DNA from: Neisseria meningitidis
Lineage (GTDB): Bacteria; Pseudomonadota; Gammaproteobacteria; Burkholderiales; Neisseriaceae
Length of the DNA: 64,000 nt
Assembly: GCA_923184405.1 (NCBI GenBank)
Contig: OV299793.1
Location: forward strand, 2,125,410 to 2,189,409
Reading direction: 5' to 3'
The notes under the pieces: model-generated
The model's database searches: none
What the model was told of the DNA's origin: nothing
The model's input: only the letters and a program-made list of their open reading frames with translations
Shown: positions 1,919-62,205 of the stretch, in pieces
Layout: the number at the start of each line of letters is the position of its first letter
Numbering within the stretch: the first letter of the stretch is position 1
Made by a program: the position numbers and the translations under genes

Positions 1919-2005
1919 TACTTTAATTCCAATAAGATCAGATTATTCAACATATTTCTTTGAACAGACTTACTATCCCATTCAACAGTATGCATATTTC
2001 CCACT

Positions 2006-2304
2006 CTATTTTTTAGCAGCAGGCATAGACGGTTTGGCTGGGCCTTTTGGTGCAGGCGCGCCGACAGAAGCCTGATCCTTCAGCTTCGCCAGCACCGCAG
2101 GGCCGATGCCCTTTACCTTGGTCAAATCGTCCACAGACTTGAACGCACCGTTTTGCGCACGGTATTCCGCAATGGCCTTCGCCTTCGCAGGGCCTATGCC
2201 CGGCAGCGCCTCAACTCCTGCTGCGAAGCCGCATTGATGTTTACCGCCGCAAGGGAGAAGGCGCAGGAGAACAGCATACAGAACAGCACGAACATTTTCT
2301 TCAT
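2006..2304 (-). CDS. comE: ComE (ComEA-like) periplasmic DNA-binding competence protein (one frameshift)
   Basis: Small exported DNA-binding protein with a helix-hairpin-helix domain, needed for DNA uptake. Neisseria carries a copy beside each rRNA operon, as here. It starts MKKMFVLFCMLF with a signal peptide to about residue 19, then VNINAASQQEL. The next block (ALPGIGPAKAKAIAEYRAQNG) reads only in another frame: TTGGAGG appears as TTGAGG at about 2207, a one-base loss. The second hairpin (VKGIGPAVLAKL) and the AKPSMPAAKK tail follow. Length is 99 codons plus stop minus one base. Confidence 0.85.
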
Positions 2305-2482
2305 GGTTTTTCCTTTAAGGGTTGCAAACAATAAACCGCATCTTGCGACGATAAAACGAGTCATTCTAAAATGAATATCCCAAAGTTTCAAGCCGTTCCT
2401 CCGCAAACCCGACCGGACGCCGTACGGATGCCGTCCCGCCATCACCGACATTACTTCCGGCAACATTTTTTCCGGGCAAAGC

Positions 2483-2508
2483 AAAACCCCCGAATAATCG
2501 GGGGTTTT
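2483..2508 (-). terminator. rRNA operon terminator
   Basis: Perfect GC-rich hairpin (AACCCCCGA and its complement around a short loop) flanked by A and T runs, just downstream of the 5S gene. Confidence 0.8.
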
Positions 2509-2518
2509 CTGAATGGGT

Positions 2519-2633
2519 GTTTGGCAGTGACCTACTTTCGCATGGAAGAACCACACTATCATCGGCGCTGAGTCGTTTCACGGTCCTGTTCGGGATGGGA
2601 AGGCGTGGGACCAACTCGCTATGGCCGCCAAAC
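2519..2633 (-). rRNA. rrf: 5S ribosomal RNA
   Basis: On the minus strand the sequence begins TTTGGCGGCCATAGCGAG and ends AGTAGGTCACTGCCAAAC, with complementary ends and the conserved CCGAACAGGACCGTGAAAC-type core. It lies about 100 nt downstream of 23S. Confidence 0.92.
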
Positions 2634-2711
2634 TTAAACTGTTACAAATCGGTAAAGCCTTAATCAATATATTCGGTAATGACTGAATCAGTCAGTAAGC
2701 TTTTATCTCTT

Positions 2712-2737
2712 GAAGTTCTTCAAATGATAGAGTCAAG
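2712..2737 (-). other. 23S processing stem, 3' arm
   Basis: These 26 bases are the reverse complement of 5609-5634 with one mismatch. The two arms bracket the 23S gene and would form the long duplex cut by RNase III when the precursor is matured. Confidence 0.75.
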
Positions 2738-60819: not shown

Positions 60820-60974
60820 TATAGTGGATTAACAAAAATCAGGACAAGGCGACGAAGCCGCAGACAGTACAAATAGTACGGAACCGATTCACTTGGTGCT
60901 TCAGCACCTTAGAGAATCGTTCTCTTTGAGCTAAGGCGAGGCAACGCCGTACTGGTTTTTGTTAATCCACTATA
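60820..60974. repeat. Correia element, full length
   Basis: 155 bp with TATAGTGGATTAAC and GTTAATCCACTATA ends, in the ATCAGGACAAGG-first orientation, 22 bp before thiS. Confidence 0.9.
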
Positions 60975-60996
60975 AATACAGAAACATCGAGAAACC

Positions 60997-61191
60997 ATGA
61001 ACATCATCTTAAACGGCGGACCCGCCGAACTTCACAGCACAAGCGTTGCCGACCTCATCGCCCAAACCGCGCCGCAAAAGCCCTTTGCCGTGGCGGTCAA
61101 CACCGTTTTCATCCCCAAAGGCGCGTATGCGGAAACGGTTTTAAACGAAAACGACAAAATCGATATCGTCCGCCCCGTCGTCGGCGGCTAG
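60997..61191 (+). CDS. thiS: Sulfur carrier protein ThiS
   Basis: Intact 64 codons, ubiquitin-like. [20 protein letters not shown]..., [31 protein letters not shown]. The terminal Gly-Gly is adenylated and thiocarboxylated to supply sulfur to ThiG. Confidence 0.94.
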
Positions 61192-61234
61192 GCAGTTTTG
61201 CCTTTTCAGACGACCCCTGTCCCCAAAACAACGT

Positions 61235-61390
61235 TATGGTGGATTAACTTTAAATCAGGACAAGGCGACGAAGCCGCAGACAGTACAAATAGTACGGAAC
61301 CGATTCACTTGGTGCTTCAGCACCTTAGAGAATCGTTCTCGTTGAGCTAAGGCGAGGCAACGCCGTACTGGTTTTTGTTAATCCACTATA
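61235..61390. repeat. Correia element, full length
   Basis: 156 bp with TATGGTGGATTAAC and GTTAATCCACTATA ends, in the same orientation as the copy at 60820-60974. It ends 14 bp before the thiG ATG. Confidence 0.9.
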
Positions 61391-61404
61391 CAAAGGAACC
61401 CATT

Positions 61405-62192
61405 ATGCTCACCCTATACGGAGAAACTTTCCCTTCACGGCTGCTGCTCGGCACGGCTGCCTACCCGACCCCTGAAATCCTCAAACAATCCATCCAAACC
61501 GCCCAGCCTGCGATGATTACCGTCTCGCTGCGCCGCGCGGGAAGCGGCGGCAGGCGCACGGTCAGGGGTTTTGGTCGCTGCTTCAAGAAACCGACGTTCC
61601 CGTCCTGCCGAACACGGCAGGCTGCCAAAGCGTGCAGGAAGCGGTAACGACGGCGCAAATGGCGCGCGAAGTGTTTGAAACCGATTGGATAAAATTGGAA
61701 CTCATCGGAGATGACGACACCTTGCAGCCGGATGTGTTCCAGCTTGTCGAAGCGGCGGAAATCCTGATTAAAGACGGCTTCAAAGTGCTGCCTTATTGCA
61801 CCGAAGACCTGATTGCCTGCCGCCGCCTGCTCGACGCGGGCTGTCAGGCGTTGATGCCGTGGGCGGCCCCGATCGGCACGGGTTTGGGCGCGGTTCACGC
61901 CTACGCGTTGAACGTCCTGCGCGAACGCCTGCCCGACACGCCGCTGATTATCGACGCGGGCTTGGGTTTGCCCTCACAGGCGGCACAAGTGATGGAATGG
62001 GGCTTTGACGGCGTGCTTTTGAATACCGCCGTTTCCCGCAGCGGCGATCCGGTCAATATGGCACGCGCCTTCGCACTCGCCGTCGAATCCGGACGGCTGG
62101 CATTTGAAGCCGGACTGGTCGAAGCACGCGACAAAGCGCAAGCCAGCACGCCGACAGTCGGACAACCGTTTTGGCATTCGGCGGAATATTGA
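61405..62192 (+). CDS. thiG: Thiazole synthase ThiG (one single-base loss)
   Basis: Condenses dehydroglycine, DXP and ThiS thiocarboxylate into thiazole phosphate. [38 protein letters not shown], then a lost G near 61552. [22 protein letters not shown], the Schiff-base lysine in [55 protein letters not shown] and the C-terminal [14 protein letters not shown] are clean. 262 residues. Confidence 0.92.
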
Positions 62193-62205
62193 AAAAGGCG
62201 GCAAA

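Follow-up and report, generated by a model that had tools for sequence, protein, structure and literature searches.

Very likely artefactual frame breaks in a Neisseria assembly, accompanied by substitutions at two likely methylated motifs

Introduction

According to the benchmark by Wick, Judd and Holt (2019; PMC6591954), about 70% of the nanopore consensus errors in K. pneumoniae were located in a 5-methylcytosine (5mC) motif, there CCAGG/CCTGG, and homopolymers constituted another class. A nanopore-based cgMLST study of N. meningitidis (PMC12506013) assigned most mismatches to positions at or beside methylated bases, almost always 5mC, in a strain-dependent manner and with one library kit; most of its indels were found at or beside methylated sites as well, and its main text contains no word beginning with "motif". 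Modpolish (PMC10687267) derives motifs from systematic mismatches between assemblies and close relatives, in Listeria GCAGC and GCTGG, and makes use of the reads. Furthermore, a methylome study (PMC7973814) of a serogroup W ST-11 N. meningitidis names RCCGGY (NmeDI-like), CCAGA, CCGG and GCGCGC as the four m5C motifs detected with MspJI.

Here we analysed a stretch of 64,000 nucleotides of Neisseria DNA (the window), for which an initial annotation had traced broken frames in essential genes to base losses in homopolymers and had proposed sequencing or assembly indels as the simplest reading. The window resembles the K. pneumoniae profile in combining homopolymer length changes with presumable errors at cytosine methylation motifs, but differs from it in the motifs concerned (RCCGGY and CCAGA), in substitutions that likely outnumber the indels, in a one-sided excess of A and in local bursts. 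It shares the genus, likely the species, and the strain-dependent mismatches at presumed 5mC with the cgMLST study; however, none of the 119 indels of one or two bases that are private to the window lies in or adjoins RCCGGY. Like the Modpolish motifs, those of the window emerge from systematic mismatches with close relatives, although here from the assembly and its relatives only. Whereas RCCGGY and CCAGA are shared with the ST-11 methylome, the two other motifs of that strain, CCGG (outside RCCGGY, 9/80 sites altered) and GCGCGC (1/19), showed no excess of errors in the window.

Sequences compared

The window carries 55 copies of GCCGTCTGAA, which we take to be the Neisseria uptake word, 29 on one strand and 26 on the other, as well as an rRNA operon, NrrF and the porB sRNA according to Rfam. 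The rRNA operon (2519-7819) is complete and includes tRNA-Ile and tRNA-Ala. A repeat of about 105 bases at 45150-45254, presumably resembling a Correia element, has many copies in the compared genomes G001, G004, G005 and others; its site is occupied in the window and in G001 and empty in G004 and G005.

The nearest genome compared, G001, consists of one contig of 2,186,098 bases. Most of the window aligns to it, mostly at 93-98% identity and in some segments at 77-91%, and N. gonorrhoeae, N. bergeri, N. polysaccharea and N. viridiae show 92-95% identity where aligned (21 kb). In the test for indels private to the window relative to G001, G004 and G005 served as further relatives, and the private counts exclude 70 of the 232 indels at which neither of the two was aligned and another 41 at which they disagreed. 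Positions were matched strictly, and three of the initially listed sites (the two petB sites and zapA) were thereby missed, so that the private-indel counts are conservative.

Interrupted frames

The frames are indeed interrupted in the sequence as given: when whole proteins of relatives were searched against the window with tblastn and pieces of more than 60% identity were counted, rpsI, rplM, petB, ppc, nadD and thiE were all matched in pieces (Table 1). Several breaks were present in four of the seven genes tested in this way. The initial claim that restoring one base would repair each frame is thus wrong for rpsI and rplM (three pieces each) as well as for petB and ppc (four pieces each). 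All ten listed sites lack bases in comparison to G004 and G005, but only nine of them do so in comparison to G001, and the loss in the region named gmhB comprises two bases rather than the single one claimed.

Table 1. Features of the window discussed in the text; listed sites are those of the initial annotation.
Feature	Position	Strand	Listed site	Observation
23S rRNA	2729..5615	-		five private single-base losses; Rfam
coaD	8849..9376	-		single tblastn piece from residue 24 of 199; 5' end disturbed
nadD	11721..12316	-	11968-11971	one frame break; 2 tblastn pieces
Two A bursts	18741..20301			18741-18931 and 19761-20301, relative to G001
Region initially named gmhB	20192..20810		20786-20790	two-base loss
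Indel-rich patch outside homopolymers	36659..39200			DNA ligase, GloB-like hydrolase, RmuC-like gene
petB (cytochrome b)	41232..42578	-	41297-41301, 42456-42459	three frame breaks; 4 tblastn pieces
rpsI (S9)	45361..45751	-	45409-45413	two frame breaks; 3 tblastn pieces in three frames
rplM (L13)	45761..46190	-	45974-45978, 46053-46057	two frame breaks, one private, one common to G001; 3 tblastn pieces
Region initially named zapA	46409..46863	+	46701-46705	one frame break
ppc	48363..51132	-	49288-49292	three frame changes across 4 tblastn pieces
Patch rich in indels and A-read bases	57604..59937	+		cytX and ThiO-like gene
thiE	59958..60574	+	60145-60147	one frame break; 2 tblastn pieces

The names rpsI, nadD, ppc and thiE are based on matches of the G001 orthologs above the NCBIfam cut-offs (S9 in the case of rpsI); coaD in G001 passes its cut-off as well, and L13 scored above cut-off in a search of the genus. 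The cytochrome b models match the G001 ortholog of petB below their cut-offs, as do the GloB and RmuC models in the patch at 36659..39200 and the ThiO model at 57604..59937. No NCBIfam match was obtained for the G001 ORFs scanned in the gmhB and zapA regions, and the ORF in the former looks antisense. The exact lesion in coaD is less sure, the alignment between the window and G001 being split there. An ORF of 477 residues (20228-21661), which extends across the frame break at 20785 and continues through the next predicted gene, is likely a spurious fusion ORF.

Taken together with the substitutions and indels described below, the frame breaks are very likely artefactual. As far as can be judged from the sequence, there is a high probability that they represent base-calling or consensus errors in an under-polished nanopore assembly of native, cytosine-methylated DNA rather than mutations of the cell.

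Substitutions at two likely methylated motifs

At 45,412 positions G001 and the further relatives agree with each other, and the window differs from them at 1225 of these, while G001 alone differs at 406 further positions. Natural divergence accounts for a part of the 1225 substitutions, and substitution errors likely outnumber the indels. Over the 21 kb compared, the window holds 277 private substitutions and G001 146. Within the coding set, which comprises 15 genes predicted from the N. bergeri locus via third-position bias and not an official annotation, those of the window are distributed over codon positions 1, 2 and 3 as 55/51/77 and those of G001 as 12/11/61 (p = 3e-6).

In word scans of the private substitutions CCGG ranked first. 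Where the four core bases could be judged, 34 of 57 RCCGGY sites were altered compared to 1/28, 6/32 and 2/21 in the other CCGG contexts (together 9/81; p = 2e-9), a grouping chosen in knowledge of the NmeDI site. Among the 43 RCCGGY sites with all six bases judged, 28 were altered (6.5 expected), in G001 four of 47. After masking of RCCGGY, CCAGA came first among strand-merged five-letter words, before the publication on CCAGA was known to us; it was altered at 14 of 21 sites (2.7 expected), in G001 at one of 22. For none of the other motifs among the 26 tested was the excess clear (GAAGG: 17/89, p = 0.06). The signal of both motifs persists outside the A-rich bursts described below (RCCGGY 26/41, CCAGA 14/21). 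By analogy with the published strains, RCCGGY and CCAGA are likely methylated in the strain from which the window originates.

RCCGGY accounts for 90 of the 1225 private substitutions. Most of the excess is therefore found elsewhere than in RCCGGY and CCAGA, and its explanation is only partial. In the 16S and 23S rRNA genes, furthermore, none of the four RCCGGY sites was altered, although the rate in the remaining sequence predicts about 2.6 altered sites, and CCAGA was altered there at two of six sites. The sparing of RCCGGY is not predicted by an origin of the changes in nanopore reading of methylated DNA; as a guess, the repeated rRNA operon may have been covered more deeply.

The indels could alternatively derive from flow-based sequencing or another platform, while RCCGGY and CCAGA would have been truly depleted by a separate process, either the avoidance of restriction or the deamination of methylated cytosine. 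Flow-based sequencing also loses homopolymer bases, and methylated C naturally mutates to T, both of which would be in line with this scenario. However, C>A and double changes, rather than C>T, make up many of the motif changes, and 25 of the 31 within genes hit the first two codon positions (10, 15 and 6 on positions 1, 2 and 3). The depletion would moreover require the 28 of 43 RCCGGY changes to have occurred on one short branch, at a motif at which G001 shows its four of 47. Although it survives better than the other alternatives, we regard this explanation as improbable.

Excess of changes to A

Changes to A in the window far exceed their reversals: C>A 173 and A>C 26, G>A 316 and A>G 91, T>A 103 and A>T 20. 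The corresponding counts in G001 are 19/13, 102/76 and 10/9, and no such imbalance is seen among C, G and T in the window. When bursts were picked by the density of changes to A, twelve were found in which many bases are read as A; those at 19.8-20.3 and 58.1-58.4 kb are the largest. Bursts of this kind, relative to G001, lie within 18741-20301 and 58141-58731.

To our knowledge, no mutation process gives such a one-sided excess of A. Undecided letters that were stored as A would explain it, as the pattern suggests. Alphabetical tie-breaking was rejected as a cause, since the order that it predicts is absent among the changes between C, G and T. A protein search with the TldD fragment of the window, which addressed the question whether the deposited letters are ambiguous, returned no protein of the assembly's own among the best 120 of 139 matches, with 8000 candidates scored.

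Ambiguous letters could also be produced by the mixing of strains, and some segments do diverge more strongly from G001, as a chimera or a mixed-strain consensus carrying true alleles of several strains would. Mixed alleles, however, would preserve the reading frames and favour third codon positions, neither of which is the case in the window, and the concentration of changes on two motifs would be unexpected. A mixed origin thus seems very improbable.

Private indels in coding, intergenic and rRNA sequences

The window differs from G001 by 3.75 indels per kb, compared to 0.89 between G001 and G004, and 121 of its 232 indels relative to G001 are private. In an alignment of seven genomes over 21 kb it contains 49 private indels, none of which is a multiple of three, and five of which are located in ppc. 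In the other six Neisseria the private non-triplet indels number 1, 1, 0, 1, 2 and 4. Their density in the window is equal in coding (35 in 13950 bases; 2.51 per kb) and in intergenic DNA (14 in 5276 bases; 2.65 per kb; Fisher p = 0.87), and four of the 15 coding sequences are free of them, where 3.0 would be expected if function were ignored. The 16S rRNA gene shows no indel relative to G001, the 23S rRNA gene the losses given in Table 1.

If these breaks were true pseudogenes, the strain would be in genome decay. This reading agrees with the frames being truly interrupted in the sequence as given and with the presence of one of the rplM breaks in G001. It is opposed by the simultaneous disturbance of S9, L13, NadD, CoaD and the 23S rRNA, as essential and RNA genes are not spared, by the equal density of indels in coding and intergenic DNA, and by the six relatives, which carry none to four of these indels each over that length of 21 kb. 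Taking furthermore into account that, of 46 Neisseria genomes searched for each, rpsI is whole in all 44 that gave a match and rplM in 43 of 44, genome decay is hardly credible.

Indels outside homopolymers appear, by eye, to bunch near 36.8-39, 53 and 57.4-59.6 kb. Their 75 contexts revealed no strong motif, the best four-letter word occurring ten times compared to 3.9 expected.

Dependence on homopolymer length

Private losses per run rise with run length from one to seven bases as 0.0006, 0.0013, 0.0028, 0.013, 0.056, 0.13 and 0.15, with 17 losses in 30568 single-base runs and nine in 68 six-base runs. The 108 private single-base indels comprise 40 losses from runs of at least three bases and 29 from shorter ones; the remaining 39 are insertions, and in 27 of these the inserted base lengthens no run. 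The concentration in homopolymers noted in the initial annotation therefore holds per run (from 0.06% of single bases to 13% of runs of six) but not in total, with 40 of 108. Phase-variable repeat tracts were considered and rejected, as the losses concern runs of up to seven bases that are scattered over housekeeping genes.

Several breaks lie in stretches of T, A or G at which slippage could occur. That the cell tolerates the breaks because slippage during transcription, programmed frameshifting or additional gene copies supply the proteins can nevertheless practically be dismissed: 68 of the 108 private single-base indels are of another kind than a loss from a run of at least three bases, rRNA is affected as well, each matched relative has a single strong match for rpsI and one for rplM (the latter in two pieces in G001), and no rpsI or rplM break is conserved beyond G001.

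A break shared with the nearest relative

The rplM break at 46053-46057 is also present in G001 (G001:C1:1783382-1783734), and was found in the window and G001 only. G001 is otherwise free of private single-base indels in the 21-kb comparison. The same homopolymer break thus occurs in a second genome, one that looks clean over the 21 kb compared. The broken product of 63 residues forms one cluster with three member sequences on two contigs, whereas among the 8000 candidates scored the clusters of whole L13 at 94-98% identity comprise 1073, 68 and 235 members. Because the broken product is rare, the break, which affects a six-base run, is likely an error in both assemblies, as judged from the sequences alone.

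Fragments of L13 with 63 residues are represented by P0001 (that of G001), P0002, P0005, P0007, P0008, P0032 and P0060. They depart from the L13 sequence near residues 44-47, which suggests that errors recur at this spot in public data.

Origin of the errors and implications

Sequencing or assembly error, as already proposed by the initial annotation, accounts for indels that are private, blind to coding function, increasingly frequent with run length and found in 23S rRNA as well as in essential genes. That account was nevertheless incomplete, as it did not include the substitutions at two motifs, the excess of A, the indels outside homopolymers, the multiple breaks per gene and the rplM break shared with G001. 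In an under-polished nanopore assembly of native methylated DNA, the pore signal would be misread at 5-methylcytosine in RCCGGY and CCAGA and runs of one base would be undercounted. Stretches with poor read support may contribute the indels outside homopolymers, and consensus letters left undecided and stored as A would presumably give rise to the one-sided excess.

Errors of this kind are well known; the new part is a cause for a part of the remaining errors, namely base-calling at two likely methylated motifs. In the literature searched, as far as the texts were accessible, we recognised no paper in which nanopore errors in Neisseria are tied to RCCGGY and CCAGA.

Read literally, the assembly would make ribosomal genes and those for NAD, CoA and respiration falsely appear lost when pan-genomes and pseudogenes are counted, and would add false missense changes at RCCGGY and CCAGA. 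Since the letters that differ from those of the relatives pile up on two likely methylated motifs, the gene losses are not to be believed. The errors probably constitute a legible fossil of the epigenome of the strain, from which the specificities of two active m5C methyltransferases, RCCGGY and CCAGA, emerge when the assembly alone, with neither reads nor signal, is compared to its relatives. The findings suggest that the methylation systems at work in a strain may be recognisable in such an assembly, and, if this is true, unpolished public nanopore assemblies would represent an unused archive of strain methylomes.
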